This document shows positions 21,594 to 49,922 of a stretch of DNA of 64,000 nt, piece after piece. The notes under the pieces are model-generated. The model was not told the origin of the DNA and did no database searches. It saw only the letters and a program-made list of their open reading frames with translations. Origin of the DNA: Oceanispirochaeta crateris (GTDB lineage Bacteria; Spirochaetota; Spirochaetia; DSM-2461); contig NZ_CP036150.1 in assembly GCF_008329965.1 (NCBI RefSeq), positions 124,001 through 188,000 of the forward strand. Direction: 5' to 3'. The number at the start of each line of letters is the position of its first letter. The stretch's first letter is position 1. Made by a program: the position numbers and the translations under genes.

Positions 21594-22159
21594 TTCGAAC
21601 CTGCCAGACCAATTTCTTCTGCGGCTGTTTTCATCCCCTCTATGGTCATGGCTATTAGATCTCCAGTTTCCATCTCCAGCATTGAGGCTCCTTTTTCAAT
21701 GACGGCTCTATCTACTCCTGCGGAGAATCCCTTGGCTTTCCATTTCTTCTTTACAGATTTAACTTCCAGATCCAGAATACTTTTTGAGGGTCTAACCAGG
21801 ACCGTAGCCGTAATCAGTCCGGTCAACTCATCAGTGGCATAGAGAACTTTTTCCATCTCATGAACGGGTTCTACGTCACTGCATAAGCCCCAACCATGGG
21901 AGACCACAGCGTGAACGACCTCTTCCGGCCAACCCCGGTCTCTTAATATCTCTGCCGATTTTACACAGTGTTCCTGGGGATATTTTTCATAATCAAGGTC
22001 GTGGATCAATCCAACAATTCCCCAGAACTCTGGGTCGTAGCCTCTGAGTTCCGCGGCATGGCGCATCACCGCTTCTACGGCCAGAGCATGGGTATAAAGA
22101 CTCTCACTCTGGTTGAATTCCCTGAATAATGCGAGGGCTGCTTCTCTGTTAATCTGCAT
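21590..22159 (-). CDS. HD-domain metal-dependent hydrolase
   Basis: A 189-residue HD-fold protein, the type that hydrolyses nucleotides or phosphomonoesters. Metal ligands are visible: TRAHALAVE-like SLYTHALAVEAVMRH, then LIHDLDYEKYP (HD pair), and AVVSHGWG. The start is ATG 22159, where GGGAGATAAAA provides the ribosome site; the frame runs upstream to 22294 inside the sulfatase gene without coding character. It overlaps the sulfatase 3' end by 11 bases and its own stop overlaps the GNAT-kinase start. Proteins of this short class are often annotated as hydrolases without a known substrate. Confidence 0.85.
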   Translation of the reverse strand: MQINREAALALFREFNQSESLYTHALAVEAVMRHAAELRGYDPEFWGIVGLIHDLDYEKYPQEHCVKSAEILRDRGWPEEVVHAVVSHGWGLCSDVEPVHEMEKVLYATDELTGLITATVLVRPSKSILDLEVKSVKKKWKAKGFSAGVDRAVIEKGASMLEMETGDLIAMTIEGMKTAAEEIGLAGSK

Positions 22160-23860
22160 TTTTATCTCCCGTTGTGTGTTTTGATTTAAGCTTTTTCTCC
22201 TTTTCAAGGAGGTCTTTGATCTTCTTATCCTGAAATCCGCCCTCTTTCTGCCATTGTTCCAGATCGAGTTGTTCCAGTTCAACAAGAGGTTCATTTTCTA
22301 TACATTTAAGAACTTCATCCATAAAATTGTTCATACTGGATTTTTCTCTCTCATCCTGAATCTGATCCTGAAAGACCGGGAATGACGGGAGCCGGGGAGC
22401 TTGATTCCCCGAATCTTCCAGAACTACAAAATCATCATCATTCAGGCAACCATCGGGGCCCCAGAGCCTTTCCTGTTCCAGGAGTTTCTCTTTCATCTGA
22501 TTCTTGATCTCAATAATTTCAGCATTGTGAGAACTAAAGAGCAGGTTTCGGCTCTCCGAAGGATCTTCTGTGAGGTTGAAGAGCTCCTCACGTCCCTCCC
22601 TGTAGTAATAATTGTATTTGTAATCCTGAGTCCGGAGGGATATCCACCGTCTTATGCCCGATCCATATTCCACATATTGTAAATTCCGGTTTTTCTTTTT
22701 TGTATCCGTCAGGAGGCTTTCTCCCGGGAGTTTGGTGGTTTTATAGGAAATTTGAATTCCTGCGGCATCCAGTATGGTTGGCATTATATCGTTTAAATCG
22801 ACAAACTCATGCACCTTTTCTCCCGGTTCTATCAGCTCTGGATAACTGAGAATACAAGGAATACGTGTACAGCTGTCGTAGGGCAGGCCTTTGGCAATGG
22901 TTCCATAATCCCCCAGAAGGTCTCCATGGTCACTCACAAAGAGAATGAGTGTATTCCGTCTCTGATTTGTATCTTCAAGAGCATCCAATATCCTTCCAAT
23001 ATTGTAATCGACCTGACTTATGGAGCTGTAATACAGTTCTCTGTAGCGTCTGAACCACTTTTGGGGAATACTCCTAAACTGACGGGCGTTCTCATCTGCC
23101 GCGGGGCTCAATGGGCTTGTTGTCTTCAGGAGTTCAGGGAGTTCTTTATCGCTGTAAAGGTCTGCAAAGCGCCTTGCAGGGTCCTGGGGGGGCGGGGAGA
23201 AATCCAGCTGACCTTCATGAGCCAGGGATGGCGGCCCCTGTTTGTTTCCAGGAAATCCAACGCTCTGTCTGCGACCCAGGTATCATCCTGATGCTGCTCG
23301 GGTAAGAGGGGACTCTGAGGGACGTAGCGGAGAATGTTTTCACATCCGTGAATGTTCAGAATATGTCCCCAACCATTCTCCTTGAGATACATGGCATAGT
23401 CATCCTCTTCTCTGAATGCCGGATTTGATTCCATCAAATGTATCCGGTCGTATCCTCTGTGGCGTCGCCGGGGAATGAATTGATTTTTACCAATGGCTAC
23501 TGTTTCATACCCATGATCAGAAAGAAGCTGGGGGAATGTATTGATCCAACCGGGCATGCCGAAGGTTCTATTGTTTTCCTGATATCCGTGGATTTTTCCT
23601 GTCAGTCCTGTCAGAAGGTTATGACGTGCAGGCATTCCGTCTGGAATGGGGGTGAAGGCATGGCTATACAACCTGCCTGAGGCTGCCAGACGGTCCAGGT
23701 TAGGAGTATACATGAAGTCGGCACCGCTGGCATTTATGGTATCCCATCTCTGCTGATCGGTCATCAGCAAGAGGATGTTTGGCCTTTTTTCACCCTTCTC
23801 ATTGTTTTCATGATCATAGGGAATCGCCGATAGAGAATCTTCTACCTTTGAACTGTCCAT
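22149..23860 (-). pseudogene. Sulfatase-family protein, frameshifted at a seven-C tract and lacking catalytic Cys and His
   Basis: Two frames (23860 to 23126 and onward to 22149) together spell one arylsulfatase/choline-sulfatase-like protein of about 565 residues. The N part has LLLMTDQQRWDT and TPNLDRLAASG; the C part has LFVSDHGDLLGDYG. The break is at a run of seven C on the coding strand (G at 23186-23192): one extra C restores the natural continuation DPARRFADLYSDKELP. In addition, the formylglycine motif C-x-P-S-R reads G-M-P-A-R, and the following GK-x-H motif reads GKNQF, so key active-site residues are missing. Either a decaying gene or a catalytically dead homologue with a sequencing or slippage indel. 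GGAG precedes the ATG at 23860. Confidence 0.83.
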
Positions 23861-36864: not shown

Positions 36865-37665
36865 ATGATTAATTTGAACGATGCTCAGGCTTTCCTGAGA
36901 GACATTATTAAAGAAGCCGGTGCACTGACTCTTCAGTACCGTGAGAATATCAAGACTCTCCGGGTAGAACAGAAAGGAACAGACAAAGATCTGGTCACAG
37001 AGGCCGATCAGGCCGTGGAATCCATGTTGAGACAGCGGATTTTGGAGCGCTACCCCGATCATGCGATCCTGGGAGAGGAGGAAGGTGAGTCGGGTGCACA
37101 TGCCTGCCGCTGGATCATCGACCCCATAGACGGGACGATTTCCTATCTTCACGGGCAGTATCAATACTCCGTATCCATAGCTCTGGAAGTCAATGGTCAC
37201 TTAGAACTGGCTGCTGTGTTGGCACCCGCCCTGGATGATCTGTATACAGCCAGGAGAGGGCAGGGCGCCTTTCTCAATGGCGTACAAATGAGGGTATCAA
37301 ACACAACAGTTCTGGGTGATGGGGTTCTCTCTACGGGTTTTGCCTGTATTCGTGCGGGCTTGAGTGAAACAAATCTGCCCCTCTTTTGCAGTATGATGCC
37401 CCGAATCAGAGATATCCGCAGAGGAGGTTCGGCCGCCTTAGACCTCTGTATGGTCGCGTCAGGTCAGTTGGACGGCTATTGGGAAAAGCATATCAATTTG
37501 TACGATATTGCCGCCGGGATGCTGATTCTGAAAGAAGCGGGAGGCCGGGTTTCCGATTACAGAGGAGGAGATGACTTTCTTCCCCAAGAGATCCTTGGCA
37601 CAAATGGTCTGATTCATAGAGAATGCATGGATGTGATCAAATCCTTTATCAAAACGGAGACCTAG
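36865..37665 (+). CDS. Inositol monophosphatase family phosphatase
   Basis: A 266-residue Mg-dependent sugar phosphatase of the SuhB/IMPase family. The metal site is present as GEEEGES, then WIIDPIDGTISYLHG (usually DPLDGTTNF) and LYDIAAGMLILKEAGG near the C-terminus. The TISYLHG sequence after the aspartates departs from the TTNFVHG of true inositol phosphatases, so substrate could be another sugar or nucleotide phosphate. There is no good ribosome site. It overlaps the convergent EcfA/EcfT-type gene by four bases. Confidence 0.88.
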   Translation: MINLNDAQAFLRDIIKEAGALTLQYRENIKTLRVEQKGTDKDLVTEADQAVESMLRQRILERYPDHAILGEEEGESGAHACRWIIDPIDGTISYLHGQYQYSVSIALEVNGHLELAAVLAPALDDLYTARRGQGAFLNGVQMRVSNTTVLGDGVLSTGFACIRAGLSETNLPLFCSMMPRIRDIRRGGSAALDLCMVASGQLDGYWEKHINLYDIAAGMLILKEAGGRVSDYRGGDDFLPQEILGTNGLIHRECMDVIKSFIKTET

Positions 37666-38585
37666 AGCCCTAGAAGAGCCCTCCAGCACTGATGTTCCAT
37701 GACAATCAAAAATATCAAAATAAACCCTGTGAGAAGAGGCAGGAATAGATCTGTTTTTTTGAAATAGACATCCTTTAAATAGGTCCGTTTCTCCTTATAT
37801 CCAAAGGCTCTGCATTCCAGGGCATCGGCTGTGACCTCGGCTTTTCTGATGCCGTTTACCAGGATCGTGAAGACATAGCGCTGCCAGAGTTTAAAGCGAT
37901 GGGCCAGACCGGACCCCGTGGTTCGTCCCCTTATGGAGTGGGCTGCCTTGACGGCTTCAGCAATGAAATCATCCAGTTCCCGTGTGACCAGGAGAATGGT
38001 TATCCCTTCATTTCGCAATTTCAGAATCAATTCATGAACTTGCCGGGTCGCCGCAGGGTCCAGGTTAGCCGTGGGTTCATCCAGGATGATCAATCTTGGT
38101 TTCATGGCCAGAACTGCAGCCAGTCCTAATTTCTGAATCTGACCTCCCGATAGATTCCATACGAGGTTGTGTCTGTACTCTTTGATGCCTGCCATGTCCA
38201 GAAGTTCTTCCACACTCTGGTGAATCTCTTCCTTTTCAAATAACAGGTTTTCAGGACCGAAGGCAATTTCATCTTCTACGGAAAGGGTGGCAAACATGGA
38301 TTCCGGATTCTGGAATACATAACCAACTTTACAGGCCAGATCTTTCATTTGAGTATCAGCTGTGGCCTTTCCCTCAATCAGAACTGTTCCTTCCAGTATT
38401 CCTCCCATCAGCTGGGGAGTCCTTCCATTGAAAAGATCGCAGAGAGTCGATTTACCGCTTCCGCCGGGGCCAACCAGAATATTAAAACTGCCCTGTTCCA
38501 GATTGAAGCTTATATCCTTTAGAACGGGTTCACTCTGTTCATCGTATCGATAGAAAACATTTTTGAATTCGACAGAATTGGGCAT
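37662..38585 (-). CDS. Chimeric ECF transporter gene: EcfA ATPase joined to the C-terminus of EcfT
   Basis: A 308-residue hybrid. Residues 1 to about 210 are an ECF/YkoD-type ATPase: Walker A GPGGSGKST, VGYVFQNPESMF, signature LSGGQIQKLGLAAVL, Walker B LIILDEPTANLD. At ITILLVTRELDDFIAEA the sequence changes directly into the end of an EcfT membrane subunit (VKAAHSIRG, then LVNGIRKAEVTADALECRAFGYKEKRTYL), followed by one helix. The rest of the ATPase, any second ATPase and the front of EcfT are missing, as after an in-frame deletion. The start is ATG 38585 with AGGAGA; the frame upstream to 38819 lies antisense in the S-component gene. Likely nonfunctional as a transporter motor. Confidence 0.8.
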   Translation of the reverse strand: MPNSVEFKNVFYRYDEQSEPVLKDISFNLEQGSFNILVGPGGSGKSTLCDLFNGRTPQLMGGILEGTVLIEGKATADTQMKDLACKVGYVFQNPESMFATLSVEDEIAFGPENLLFEKEEIHQSVEELLDMAGIKEYRHNLVWNLSGGQIQKLGLAAVLAMKPRLIILDEPTANLDPAATRQVHELILKLRNEGITILLVTRELDDFIAEAVKAAHSIRGRTTGSGLAHRFKLWQRYVFTILVNGIRKAEVTADALECRAFGYKEKRTYLKDVYFKKTDLFLPLLTGFILIFLIVMEHQCWRALLGL

Positions 38586-38653
38586 GCTGTTTCTCTCCTG
38601 AGAAAAATTACAGGGCTGAATTATATAAAATATTTCCGCCCTGCTTGGTGATC

Positions 38654-39295
38654 TTATTTTTTCCGGGATGATCGGATCAAACCGGTTTTGGCCAGACGGG
38701 ATGCCAGTGCATAGCCAAGGACACCGCTGAAAATGGCTCCTGAGATCGTATTCACGGGAACAGACATCCAGACATCTCTTGAATACGCGGGGTCCCATCC
38801 GAAGAATACGGAACTCCAAAGAGTCCCAAACTGTGATGCCGCTGCTCCGGCCATGATGTCGGTGATGAGGCCAAACCTTGAGTAACTGACACAGATTAAA
38901 ACCGCTTCGATGGCGAGTCCCTGAGAGATCCCCCAGCCTAGAGTTCCGATTCCTGCCGCATTTCCAAGAAGAACTTCTGTTGACGCTTCAATCAATCCGA
39001 ACATCAAGGCTATTCCGGGTTTCCGGACAATGAAGACTGCCAGAATATAGGCCCACATGAACATTCCCTGAATCAGTGCACCACCCAGTGGTCCCAGGGA
39101 TGTGTTTGCCAGGTACCAGATATTCCCGACACCTGTGTTGATCACACCGGCAATGGCGGCCAAAACGGCAACGATTACCAGATTTTGTGTGGAATAGCCG
39201 CCTTTTTCCTTGTCGACCTTATTCTTGTCTGTAAAACGGGCAATGAGACCCAGCAGGACAACAATAAGCACATTAAAGATAGTGTAAAATGTCAT
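38654..39295 (-). CDS. ECF transporter S component, YkoE-like
   Basis: A 213-residue membrane protein with about six helices. NLVIVAVLAAIAGVINTGVGNIWYLA, then LGPLGGALIQGMFMWAYILAVFIVRKPG and ALMFGLIEASTEVLLGN match the YkoE family (PF09819), the substrate-binding component of a thiamin/hydroxymethylpyrimidine-type ECF transporter. AAGGAGAAGG precedes the ATG. It follows the MtmB-like gene by 50 bases and precedes the chimeric EcfA/EcfT gene by 68. With its own motor damaged, it may borrow the EcfAA'-EcfT module at 47660-49922. I see no TPP riboswitch upstream. Confidence 0.82.
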   Translation of the reverse strand: MTFYTIFNVLIVVLLGLIARFTDKNKVDKEKGGYSTQNLVIVAVLAAIAGVINTGVGNIWYLANTSLGPLGGALIQGMFMWAYILAVFIVRKPGIALMFGLIEASTEVLLGNAAGIGTLGWGISQGLAIEAVLICVSYSRFGLITDIMAGAAASQFGTLWSSVFFGWDPAYSRDVWMSVPVNTISGAIFSGVLGYALASRLAKTGLIRSSRKK

Positions 39296-39345: not shown

Positions 39346-40716
39346 CTAGAGCTTGATTCCCATATCTATTAGATCCTTCTTCACCATTTCATAGAGAGAC
39401 AGCCATTCCGGCCTTGGCTGGACTGTGAGTAGGTCATAGGCCTCTTCGATGGATTTTCCGGGATTGCCTCCCTCTGTTTCAAAAATATGTTCATATTTAT
39501 GAAGCAGTAACTGAATGATGCGGTTTCCTTCCAGAAGAGACATATTCTGTCTGGTGACTGCATGGGCCACTTCAGCCATGAGACGGACTTCAAGACCGGT
39601 TCCATGAGGCTTGCTGCCATCGGCAGAACCCACTCCTTCAAGATGTCCTCCGCTCAGGGATATGGCAATTGTATTGGCGGTAACTTCATAGAGCAGTTCC
39701 TTGGTGAGAGCCCCGCTCTTTGGATAGATATCGCAGACAATAACCGCAGGAGCATTCCTGGCAAAAGCCTGACACACTATGCTCTGAAGCCACATACAGC
39801 CGCGGGCTGAGGTGGCAACATAACGGATATGGATAGGATGGCAAAGATGGTAATCGGCCAGGCAGACGATATTGGCTGCCAGAAAGGAGGCTACCTGTAC
39901 AACAGCTGCCCCTGGAGCATCTCCTGCCAGTCCTCCCACCATCACCGTTGCCAGGGAGGCATTAGCCATTCCGTAGAAAAGAGAGTTAGCCGCTCTAAGC
40001 ATATTTCCCTGATCGATCATCAATTCGTTAAACATGGCTACCAGGTGAGAGTCACAGGGACGTAGCAGGTCGGGATGGGTCGCTGCCAAATCTCCAATTT
40101 CGGTCACGCTGCTCTCGGCGGCGAGCATTCCAAGACCGGGGCGTCCGACCTCTTCCCTGACCTGTCTCAGGTAGGATAATTCACGTCTGGAGGCTATGAG
40201 TTCACTCAGTTCACCTGAGACGACGTTCACGCCATCCACATCTACCAGGGAGCCACAGGTGATAAGATCAACGAGTGGTTCCTGAGCCCAGCTTTTAACA
40301 GAGGCTTTGAATATCCTTTCTGGTGTGGGAACCCCCGGGTTCCCGGCCCATATGGTGGGAGGGGTGGTATCCAGGATTTTCCGGGGTAGGAGAATGCAGG
40401 CATCTTTTCCTTCGCCCATACTCAGAGGTCTATCCATCTTATGAATACCTTCAAGAATTTCCTGTTCCGAGAGTTCTATGATGCGGCCTTTGTTCAGGGC
40501 ATAGACCCCTATGTCCAGGATGAGTTCCTTTCCGGCAGCAAAGACTCTGTCCGCCAGATCTGGATGATCGGGAGTTATGACTTGATCGTCCCAGGCAAGT
40601 TCGTATTTTTCTACCAGAGCTTGAACTTTTTCGATGATTCTAAAGTCCCAGTCTTCTTTGGAAAGTGTCTGACCCGTTCGGGCGCGTTCAGAAATGTCTA
40701 GGTAATTGTGTATCAT
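39346..40716 (-). CDS. Monomethylamine methyltransferase (MtmB)-family protein without pyrrolysine
   Basis: A 456-residue protein colinear with methanogen MtmB (458 residues), the corrinoid-dependent enzyme that moves the methyl of monomethylamine to a corrinoid protein. Shared landmarks run throughout: the N-terminal DWDFRIIEKVQAL, LILDIGVYALNKGRII, VGRPGLGM, HPDLLRPCDSH then FNELMID, CHPIHIRYVATSARG, and GTGLEVRLMAEVAHAV near the end. The frame has no in-frame TAG; at the place of MtmB pyrrolysine 202 (GRPGMGV-Pyl-GPETS) it has Leu198 in GRPGLGMLAAESS. It may be a non-Pyl methyltransferase acting on another methylated substrate, as MtgB relates to MttB. AAGGGG precedes the ATG; first gene of an operon with YkoE. 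Confidence 0.85.
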   Translation of the reverse strand: MIHNYLDISERARTGQTLSKEDWDFRIIEKVQALVEKYELAWDDQVITPDHPDLADRVFAAGKELILDIGVYALNKGRIIELSEQEILEGIHKMDRPLSMGEGKDACILLPRKILDTTPPTIWAGNPGVPTPERIFKASVKSWAQEPLVDLITCGSLVDVDGVNVVSGELSELIASRRELSYLRQVREEVGRPGLGMLAAESSVTEIGDLAATHPDLLRPCDSHLVAMFNELMIDQGNMLRAANSLFYGMANASLATVMVGGLAGDAPGAAVVQVASFLAANIVCLADYHLCHPIHIRYVATSARGCMWLQSIVCQAFARNAPAVIVCDIYPKSGALTKELLYEVTANTIAISLSGGHLEGVGSADGSKPHGTGLEVRLMAEVAHAVTRQNMSLLEGNRIIQLLLHKYEHIFETEGGNPGKSIEEAYDLLTVQPRPEWLSLYEMVKKDLIDMGIKL

Positions 40717-41075: not shown

Positions 41076-41825
41076 TTAGATTTTTCTGGCAATGTAGAAA
41101 ACATATCCGTAATAATCTTTATATTTCTTAAAAAGATCTATCTCATGCTGCTCCTCTTTGACCAGATCTTCGGCATTTTTATCTTCTTGATGCCGCTTGA
41201 GAAAATCCGGAATACGGGAGAGCATGGGGGTGTAATAATTATCAAGCCAGCTGTTTTCTGATATTGTAAAATTGCCCACCAGTTCATAGCCACAGTTTTT
41301 GAGCTGATCTTTCTTAACTTCCAGGGAGTGCATTTCAGAATAAGTACCAGACCAGAATTGTTCCAATTCGGGTGGTCTATCCTCTTTTAACCATGTGATC
41401 TCGGATACGGCAATGTATCCCCCGGGTTTTAGGAATTTTCTCCATGCCAGAAGTCCCTTTTGGAATCCCATGTTGTAAATGGCGCCTTCCGACCAGATGA
41501 GGTCCAGCGATTCTTCCTCAAAAGGCAGATCATCCATGGAACACTGAAGTGTATTGATTCTCTCTTTATACCCTTCTTCTTCAGCATATTCCTTTACTTT
41601 CTCCAGGAATTCCGGAAAAAGATCGACCGCAATGATTTTTCCCCTGGTCAATCGGGCCAGCTCCAGAGTCTGTGCTCCGCTTCCGCATCCTATGTCTGCT
41701 ATTTTCAAATCCTCTGATAGGTTCAGATTCGTCAGTTTCAGGGCTTTTCCTGTTTCTTCAGAACTTCCGGGCCCGAGGCGCAGGGCTCCCTTGTGAAGGT
41801 CAATTATCAGTTCTAAATCATCCAT
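41076..41825 (-). CDS. Class I SAM-dependent methyltransferase
   Basis: A 249-residue cytoplasmic methyltransferase. The SAM loop is ADIGCGSGAQTLELA, motif II VDLFPEFLEKVKEYAEE, and LDLIWSEGAIYNMGF then LKPGGYIAVSEITWL complete the Rossmann core; the C-terminal ~90 residues are a substrate lid. It resembles small-molecule methyltransferases of the UbiE/arsenite-methyltransferase broad group without the cysteine set of the latter. The gene is alone, with no neighbour clearly linked; substrate unknown. GAGGAG lies 11 bases before the ATG. Confidence 0.87.
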   Translation of the reverse strand: MDDLELIIDLHKGALRLGPGSSEETGKALKLTNLNLSEDLKIADIGCGSGAQTLELARLTRGKIIAVDLFPEFLEKVKEYAEEEGYKERINTLQCSMDDLPFEEESLDLIWSEGAIYNMGFQKGLLAWRKFLKPGGYIAVSEITWLKEDRPPELEQFWSGTYSEMHSLEVKKDQLKNCGYELVGNFTISENSWLDNYYTPMLSRIPDFLKRHQEDKNAEDLVKEEQHEIDLFKKYKDYYGYVFYIARKI

Positions 41826-47659: not shown

Positions 47660-49150
47660 ATGATCAACGCCGAAAAGCAGCCCCTCTTGAGTATCCGGGA
47701 CTATCATTTTGAGTTTCCTTCTTACCCGGGTCTGCAAAACCAGGCTCTTTTCAAGGGATTGAATTTTACTCTGAACAGGGGTGAGTTTTGGGTTGTCTTG
47801 GGAGCTCCTGAGAGTGGCAAAACCACACTGGGACGATGTTTGACCGGGGTTTATCCAGGATTGACTCAGGCTGAAACATCGGGAGATATATTCATAGACG
47901 GTGAACCCGTGAGTACGCGGTCGGCTTGTGATTGGATAGAAAAAACGGGAATCGTATTCCAAAATCCTGATGAGCAGATTGTCAGCACTCGATGCGATGA
48001 TGAAGCGTCATTGGCCCTTGAGTCCCTTGCTTTTGAAGCTCATGAGATACAAAAGAGGCTCAGCGCTTCATTTGGACGCTTTTCCATTCTGGGGAAGGAG
48101 AGGAGGAATCCCGTTTCGCTCTCGGGAGGAGAGAAAAAACGGCTCCTCATTGCTTCCTTGGAGATGCAGAATCCGGACCTCTGGATACTGGATGAATCTA
48201 TGGATGAACTGGACCATGACGGACAAGAATTTCTCATGAACTACCTAGGGGAAAAAGCCCATAATGAGAACAAAGGCATTCTGTTGTTTGCTTCCAAATA
48301 TAAGGATCTCTTTCAAGACTCAGAAGTAAAACTGGCTTTATTATCCGCAGGTCAGATGAACATTCAGGAGAATGACCCCCATCATTTTGAGGCACTCCTC
48401 GAAGCAGATGGTCTGAGTTTGACCGAGAACCAAGGGTATAAGGCTTCCTATTCTCCTCCCGCTGATCAAACATGTTTATTTGAAATGCATAATGTAAAAT
48501 ATAAATACCATGGTAATACCGATTTTTCCCTGGATATTGAGCATTTTGAATTGAAACAGGGGGAAGTCCTGGCACTTGAAGGACCCAACGGATGCGGGAA
48601 AACGACTCTGGCTAGGATCGTCAGTGGATTGATAGATCCTGATAAAGGAGACCTTACCCTATTTGGAGCTTCCGTCGGGAGAGCTCAGCTGAACAAAAGC
48701 TGCGGCTATTTATTTCAAAATCCTGACTACCAGCTCTTTTTACCGACTGTGGCCGAAGAATTGGCTCTGGGACTTAAATTCTCAGGTCTTGATAAAAAAC
48801 TTAGGAATTCCAGGATCAGCCAGGCCATTGACTTATTCAGACTGCCCAGTTCCGATGCTCCTCCAGCTTTGATGAGTTTTGGAGCCAGAAAACGCCTGCA
48901 GGGGGCCATCTACTATCTCCTGGACAAGCATATTTATATTCTGGATGAGGCTGACTCTGGGCTGAATTTTAGGGATTTTATCAGCATTGTCAGTGAATTG
49001 AGGACTAAGGCCGCGGCCCTCATCGTGATTAGTCATGACAGCAATATTCAAAGCCTCGGTGCGGATAGGGTCTTGAGAATGGACCAGGGACGCATCTTTG
49101 AACAAGAGAGCGGAATGAGCTCTAAAAGAGGGGACAACCCCCATGATTGA
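47660..49150 (+). CDS. ECF transporter tandem ATPase (EcfA-EcfA' fusion)
   Basis: A 496-residue protein with two ATPase domains. Domain 1 has Walker A GAPESGKTT, QNPDEQIVS, signature LSGGEKKRLLIA and Walker B LWILDESMDELD; domain 2 has GPNGCGKTT, QNPDYQLFLP, a degenerate signature MSFGARKRL and Walker B IYILDEADSGLN. This is the YkoD-like fused motor of energy-coupling-factor transporters. It overlaps EcfT by eight bases. No S component is beside it, so it probably serves those at 38654 and/or 59671. The ATG has no strong ribosome site. Divergent from ygfK. Confidence 0.9.
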   Translation: MINAEKQPLLSIRDYHFEFPSYPGLQNQALFKGLNFTLNRGEFWVVLGAPESGKTTLGRCLTGVYPGLTQAETSGDIFIDGEPVSTRSACDWIEKTGIVFQNPDEQIVSTRCDDEASLALESLAFEAHEIQKRLSASFGRFSILGKERRNPVSLSGGEKKRLLIASLEMQNPDLWILDESMDELDHDGQEFLMNYLGEKAHNENKGILLFASKYKDLFQDSEVKLALLSAGQMNIQENDPHHFEALLEADGLSLTENQGYKASYSPPADQTCLFEMHNVKYKYHGNTDFSLDIEHFELKQGEVLALEGPNGCGKTTLARIVSGLIDPDKGDLTLFGASVGRAQLNKSCGYLFQNPDYQLFLPTVAEELALGLKFSGLDKKLRNSRISQAIDLFRLPSSDAPPALMSFGARKRLQGAIYYLLDKHIYILDEADSGLNFRDFISIVSELRTKAAALIVISHDSNIQSLGADRVLRMDQGRIFEQESGMSSKRGDNPHD

Positions 49151-49922
49151 TACCCTGTATAGGGAAGAGAGAAGTCTCCTTCACGGCTATGATTGCCGCT
49201 TGAAACTGATAGTGCTTCCTCTCCTGGTTGTGTTCTATTTTCTGCCTCAATCCCTGCTCATCAATGGTGGACTCACACTTTTACTATTGATTCTTACCTT
49301 GTTTATTCTGGGGGTAAAAGACCTGTATGCTCCTCTGAAAATGATATATCCTCTGCTGATTCTTATTTTCATTCTGACTCCTCTGTTTCATAAAACCGGA
49401 GCTGTGTATATAAGCACTGGGAGTATGATTTTTGTGACGAGTCACGGAATCATGGAAGCCCTCCACTATGTATTCCGTCTGACGGGCATCAGTTTCCTTT
49501 TCTTTCTCTTTTTCCGGACGACAGCCATGGAAGATATTCTGTTGGGCCTCAGCTGGTTCCGCCTCCCCTATGTGGTGACCCTTGTGATCTCCATCTCCCT
49601 GCGTTATATTCCTCATCTAGCGGGTTTGTATGAGCAGATTAAGGCCGCTCATGGTCTTCGCTGCGGGGTGAATGATATCTCTGTTACAAAAAAAAGGTGG
49701 ACCAAAGTCAGAGGGTTGTTTCCTATTTTGGTGTCTCTCATGATTCAGAGCGTAAAGACCATACCCTTGTTGACTATGGCCCTGGAATTGAAGGGTATCG
49801 GCCGAGACAATCGGCGGACCCGCCTCAGGGGGCTCCCTCAGGTTCATTCTGTGAAGCAGCAGCTTGTTGTTTCCCTTCTCATACTAACAGTGCTGGCTGG
49901 TCTTTTAATCCGATTCCGATAA
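49143..49922 (+). CDS. ECF transporter transmembrane subunit EcfT
   Basis: A 259-residue membrane subunit with about six helices that couples the ATPases to S components. KLIVLPLLVVFYFLPQSLLINGG and RLKL near the start, then TMALELKGIGRDNRRTRLRGL containing the second of the two Ala-Arg-Gly-like coupling motifs (here LKGIG) and IKAAHGLRCG as the first, match the family. GAGGGG precedes the ATG inside the ATPase gene. Complete, unlike the truncated EcfT piece at 37662-38585. Confidence 0.87.
   Translation: MIDTLYREERSLLHGYDCRLKLIVLPLLVVFYFLPQSLLINGGLTLLLLILTLFILGVKDLYAPLKMIYPLLILIFILTPLFHKTGAVYISTGSMIFVTSHGIMEALHYVFRLTGISFLFFLFFRTTAMEDILLGLSWFRLPYVVTLVISISLRYIPHLAGLYEQIKAAHGLRCGVNDISVTKKRWTKVRGLFPILVSLMIQSVKTIPLLTMALELKGIGRDNRRTRLRGLPQVHSVKQQLVVSLLILTVLAGLLIRFR

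Follow-up and report, generated by a model that had tools for sequence, protein, structure and literature searches.

We analysed 64,000 nucleotides of Oceanispirochaeta crateris (contig NZ_CP036150.1, positions 124,001 to 188,000), a stretch referred to below as the window. Its central subject is a gene of the MtmB family of methyltransferases that encodes leucine where pyrrolysine (Pyl) would be expected, and that is followed downstream, after a gap of 50 bp, by the gene for an ECF transporter S component. The features to which we refer are the following:

39346..40716, minus strand: non-pyrrolysine MtmB-family methyltransferase gene, 456 aa (PF05369, 312 bits; full-length match to 1L2Q/1NTH; purifying selection)
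40108..40146, minus strand: landmark GRPGLGMLAAESS, residues 191-203, aligned with GRPGMGV(Pyl)GPETS of MtmB1
40123..40125, minus strand: codon 198, CTC (Leu), at the Pyl202 position of MtmB1 by alignment; Leu in 64/64 family members
41076..41825, minus strand: SAM-dependent (Methyltransf_11) protein upstream of the methyltransferase, a neighbour conserved in the genus only
38654..39295, minus strand: YkoE-type ECF transporter S component, 213 aa, matching PF09819 and YkoE (5EDL)
37662..38819, minus strand: ECF remnant that joins EcfAA' residues 1-211 in frame with EcfT residues 166-264, by comparison with locus L148
47660..49922, plus strand: second, intact ECF ATPase and EcfT pair of the same window

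The methyltransferase and its pyrrolysine position

The gene starts with an ATG preceded by a Shine-Dalgarno-like AAGGGG and ends in a normal terminal TAG, and its frame is free of internal amber codons, as the preliminary description of the window had stated. PF05369 (MtmB) is its sole Pfam match, well above the cut-off of 25 bits and spanning positions 4-450 of the 450-position model, and phmmer aligns residues 6-454 of the protein with residues 10-456 of MtmB1 from Methanosarcina barkeri (1L2Q/1TV2; E 3e-59), so that the full-length colinearity proposed earlier is borne out. PF06253, the MttB superfamily, has no match in the protein, and no PF06253/MttB gene was found in the window genome. 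An AlphaFold2 model (pLDDT 93.7) superimposes on MtmB with a Z score of 57.0 and an rmsd of 1.6 over 451 residues at 30% identity, on MttB with a Z score of 25.7 over 331 residues (25-26 across MttB-type structures) and on other barrels with Z scores of about 17 or less; a barrel with a better match than MtmB, named beforehand as the refuting outcome, did not turn up. Comparisons with same-genus orthologues give dN values of 0.07-0.14 at dS above 1, with dN/dS within the genus well below 0.1, and we therefore consider the gene to be under strong purifying selection and kept by it. There is thus good support for an intact, conserved relative of MtmB, and hence for a protein of this class of methyltransferases.

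The position of pyrrolysine was assigned in two ways. In the phmmer alignment, the X (pyrrolysine) of MtmB1 lies opposite the Leu of GRPGLGML, and in a separate MAFFT alignment of the window protein with 77 other sequences Pyl202 and Leu198 share one column, with no other column for Pyl; both agree with the placement made in the preliminary description. This column holds Leu in 64 of 65 rows, including all 64 full-length members of the tight family to which the window protein belongs. Throughout the family, Glu229 and Glu259 of MtmB1 are also replaced by Leu and Gln333 by Asp, while Trp293 is Tyr in the non-Pyl family; these four MtmB residues are the ones that we take to surround pyrrolysine. 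The family also represents a natural series with a hydrophobic site in place of pyrrolysine.

A genome scan yielded 68 loci, 67 of which form one family at 48-82% identity, the remaining one (L102) being a 30% relative. Carriers are found in the Spirochaetota, in many Lachnospiraceae and other Clostridia, in Planctomycetota and Chloroflexota, and in two deltaproteobacterial lineages, so that at least five phyla have retained the family; it is common in gut Lachnospiraceae, and its relatives live in gut and sediment. Within the window's own phylum, a PF05369 gene of any kind is present in only 8 of the 393 genomes sampled, and an orthologue occurs in 4 of 6 genomes of the genus (82-100% identity). 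The sequences at L064, L071 and L083 form the sister clade of the window's Spirochaete clade (support 98/89). No relatives were found in PLSDB plasmids or, with close-match patterns, in IMG/VR. More distant non-Pyl MtmB homologues were also observed, three of them in tandem in a Spirochaetota bin (L102 / L024, G016:C87:1559-5971; 29-31% identity) and others beside corrinoid protein genes in the genomes G432 and G428.

Importers and adenine genes around the family

The preliminary description placed the methyltransferase at the head of an operon that includes an ECF S component. This order is right, and the ATPase/EcfT gene that comes next is internally deleted in this genome. At the same-genus locus L148 the intact order is methyltransferase, S component, a 584-aa dual ATPase and a 264-aa EcfT, and relative to L148 and L149 the 385-aa remnant frame of the window is missing about 1.6 kb; the window genome thus has the methyltransferase and the S component together with a broken ECF motor. 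The fusion at 37662-38819 is either a strain-specific loss or an assembly error. The intact ATPase/EcfT pair at 47660-49922 might drive the S component instead. Elsewhere in the window, we weighed a YgfK-like gene (TIGR03315; 44327-47461, minus strand) as an indicator of purine use and set it aside, since the syntenic loci L035 and L147 do not have it, and a sulfatase-like gene (22149-23860, minus strand) appears to be split into two frames (23126-23860 and 22149-23111), possibly by a frameshift.

The S component of the window is a homologue of YkoE (PDB 5EDL; E 2.5e-15). In the Bacillus subtilis protein, thiamine is contacted by Glu77 and Gln95 at the pyrimidine, by Trp49 through stacking, and by Tyr46 and Asp131 at the thiazole (PMC5037267). 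The pyrimidine-binding Glu77 and Gln95 are kept in all eight methyltransferase-linked S components, whereas the stacking and thiazole contacts are replaced in every one of them (Trp49 by Phe, Tyr46 by Gln and Asp131 by Ser or Thr). Judged from these residues, the linked S components would fit an aminopyrimidine-like ring without a thiazole, such as adenine, and they are probably not thiamine transporters. At the Rfam gathering level, no riboswitch, TPP included, was found in the window or in 13 related loci, a T-box before an unrelated gene excepted.

Importers accompany the family well beyond this genus. A tblastn census of the neighbours of the 68 loci found an importer on the same strand as the methyltransferase, mostly directly adjacent, in 59 of them, and these importers are of three unrelated kinds: a Bmp/PnrA-type ABC transporter (26 loci), a permease of about 525 residues (28 loci) and the YkoE-type ECF cassette (5 loci plus the window). 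The nine loci without an importer match include truncated contigs and L102. Since three unrelated importers accompany one enzyme, its substrate is probably imported, as had been suggested from the window alone. The further suggestion of a vitamin-like substrate fares less evenly: the S component is indeed of the YkoE (thiamine) type, but its thiazole contacts are replaced and the neighbours of the relatives point to adenine metabolism.

The permease lies directly downstream of the methyltransferase in its 28 loci (e.g., L095:9447-11024 and L039:9432-10985). It has no Pfam family at a useful score, no NCBIfam match and no sequence match in the PDB. Its structural model, of moderate confidence only (pLDDT 67), has a UraA/SLC26/NAT fold and was matched as well by SLC26 anion carriers as by NCS2 proteins. 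Profile comparison with NCS2 gave a weak match (probability 66%, E 5.5e-5) with in-register TM8 Glu and TM10 PNT motifs, which suggests a distant relationship to NCS2; the same comparison with an AzgA-like sequence gave no support. Bmp receptors, which belong to the other frequent importer, are known from the uptake of purine nucleosides.

Adenine genes recur in these neighbourhoods. An adenine deaminase gene (ade) lies near the methyltransferase in eight loci (L039, L041, L043, L051, L064, L067, L078 and L080), which fall on five separate branches of the methyltransferase tree, and the enzymes of all five loci scanned pass the TIGR01178 cut-off. The Blautia loci have a contiguous run of ade, ATPase, permease, permease, Bmp and methyltransferase genes, with ade first. 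At L038, an adenine phosphoribosyltransferase gene (apt; TIGR01090, above cut-off) heads the operon, 13 bp before the Bmp-type transporter, and at L064 the row reads GntR, corrinoid protein, methyltransferase, adenine deaminase and xanthine dehydrogenase-like genes. As a rough estimate that assumes 0.6% per locus, at least five independent adenine hits in 68 loci would arise by chance with a probability of 6e-5. No adenine gene lies within reach in 58 of the 68 loci, and the window genome encodes three adenine deaminases, none of them near the methyltransferase. The deaminase could, in some operons, belong to the transporter rather than to the methyltransferase.

Corrinoid protein and reductive activator

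Neither a corrinoid protein gene nor an adenine gene adjoins the methyltransferase in the window genome. In the sister clade, a corrinoid protein gene (PF02607 and PF02310) lies 9-18 bp from the methyltransferase gene at L064, L071 and L083, with RACo next to it in the latter two, and all 12 carrier genomes tested encode a free-standing MtxC-type protein. The search for corrinoid and RamA-like genes elsewhere in the genome, which the preliminary description had proposed, found one RACo, PocR/AraC regulator and MtxC cassette in the window genome (G000:C1:2120927-2125154, L021), 2 Mb from the methyltransferase, in which a PF14574 reductive activator of the RACo/RamA type stands beside the corrinoid protein. 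There is no methyltransferase gene beside this cassette; another genome of the genus conserves it at 61-89%.

Within the taxonomic family, an orthologue of the corrinoid protein is present in 7 of 8 carriers of the methyltransferase versus 7 of 17 non-carriers, two of them in pieces, a weak co-occurrence (one-sided Fisher p = 0.038). Close to the corrinoid cassette or gene, two carriers encode an MtgA-like pterin-binding protein; in the window genome this family is represented by FolP and MetH only, and no stand-alone methyl-THF methyltransferase was found there. The window genome also has 11 matches of the URO-D type, and these proteins may share the same corrinoid protein. One copy of the URO-D family (G000:C1:2286769-2287584, L105), located near another URO-D gene, contains three in-frame stops and looks like a pseudogene.

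Proposed function and known systems

Because the relatives stand beside importers and adenine-processing genes, the methyltransferase probably strips a methyl group from an imported, methylated adenine-like compound. Computation shows to which family and fold the protein belongs, that Leu fills the Pyl site, that the gene is conserved, that the genome encodes a corrinoid protein and an activator, and that relatives are linked to importers and adenine genes; that a methyl group is transferred, to which corrinoid protein and from which substrate, is what we infer. In our leading proposal, which we hold with about even confidence, a pyrrolysine-free TIM-barrel enzyme of the MtmB family depends on a corrinoid to demethylate a methylated aminopurine that the cell imports. 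The compound, most likely an N-methyladenine or its nucleoside, would be taken up and bound in the barrel. There, Leu residues occupy the places of Pyl and of its acidic neighbours, and Asp329 could act as a partner for the cationic N-methyl heterocycle. A separate corrinoid protein of the MtxC type, kept reduced or reactivated by the RACo/RamA-like ATPase, would then accept the methyl group on its Co(I) by SN2 transfer; the group would finally enter one-carbon metabolism through THF or methionine, while the freed adenine would go to salvage by APRT or to adenine deaminase. Several observations speak against this reading: neither the UraA fold nor the Bmp receptors pin down the substrate, relatives that lack the methyltransferase can have the corrinoid cassette too, one of eight carriers does not have it, the ECF cassette is damaged in the window genome, and most loci have no adenine gene.

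Among the alternatives, each of which we regard as unlikely, the foremost is a quaternary-amine methyltransferase like MtqB, acting on tetramethylammonium, choline or similar compounds, with the adenine genes adjacent by coincidence. Quaternary amines are the substrates of the only characterised non-Pyl homologue of MtmB (PMC13044021), and other non-Pyl enzymes, those of the MttB superfamily, act on them as well; yet none of the recurrent importers, which are of the Bmp and YkoE types or a permease with a UraA fold, is a betaine or choline carrier, and the adenine genes recur on five branches. It is improbable, too, that the substrate is an O-, N- or S-methylated 4-aminopyrimidine other than adenine, e.g., an HMP/thiamine-like compound or bacimethrin. 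The YkoE (thiamine) type of the linked S component, with its pyrimidine-binding Glu and Gln kept, would agree with such a compound, but purines are indicated by the operons in which ade or apt accompanies Bmp genes and by the Chloroflexota locus with ade and xdh, and neither the window nor the 13 related loci have a TPP riboswitch. Slightly more doubtful is another methylated purine as the donor (5'-methylthioadenosine, 7-methylguanine or methylxanthines), with the adenine genes marking general purine use; the purine nucleoside uptake for which Bmp receptors are known and the xanthine dehydrogenase-like genes beside ade at L064 would fit this, but it is the adenine-specific ade and apt that recur while xanthine-type genes occur once only, and neither an MTA nucleosidase nor an MTR kinase is among the annotated neighbours, which are part of all neighbours. 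Very improbable, finally, is a monomethylamine methyltransferase with Leu for Pyl and an unchanged substrate, or a decayed, non-catalytic relic, since, although MtmB provides the closest solved structures, Pyl and both acidic residues of its site are uniformly Leu, dN/dS is well below 0.1 in the genus and the family persists in at least five phyla.

Returning to the methylated aminopurine, we propose, more tentatively than for the window enzyme itself, that a widespread bacterial family of corrinoid methyltransferases N-demethylates methylated adenines from RNA and DNA turnover. If so, gut and sediment anaerobes would gain adenine and a methyl group from an oxygen-free demethylation of methylated nucleobases, corrinoid methyltransferases would count methylated purines among their substrates, and one-carbon metabolism would be connected with the turnover of nucleic acids in anoxic habitats. 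In the open-licence literature we found no paper in which methylated purines are demethylated with a corrinoid, nor one that connects MtmB with adenine.

Among known systems, MtmB1 of M. barkeri (1L2Q/1NTH) shares with the window protein its full-length fold, the GRPG landmark and the DSH motif, but has Pyl202, Glu229, Glu259 and Gln333 where the latter has Leu198, Leu, Leu and Asp, and monomethylamine is therefore an unlikely substrate. The non-Pyl enzymes of the MttB superfamily (MtgB and relatives, PF06253) follow the same logic of a TIM barrel and corrinoid methyl transfer, but constitute a separate sequence family, with fold Z scores of 25-26 versus 57 for MtmB. Non-Pyl homologues of MtmB are numerous, but we found a demonstrated function for one alone, MtqB of Methanococcoides methylutens Q3c, described in 2026 as the first such case and active on tetramethylammonium and choline (PMC13044021); the preliminary description, whose author was aware of no characterised non-Pyl MtmB, needs correcting on this point, and an MtmB without pyrrolysine is thus a kind already known. 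MtqB resembles the window protein in belonging to the MtmB family without pyrrolysine, but, as described, it is archaeal and methanogenic, is encoded next to MtqC and has another gene context. What is new here is a coherent non-Pyl MtmB family whose gene neighbourhoods predict a different class of substrate, and do so in a concrete and testable form.
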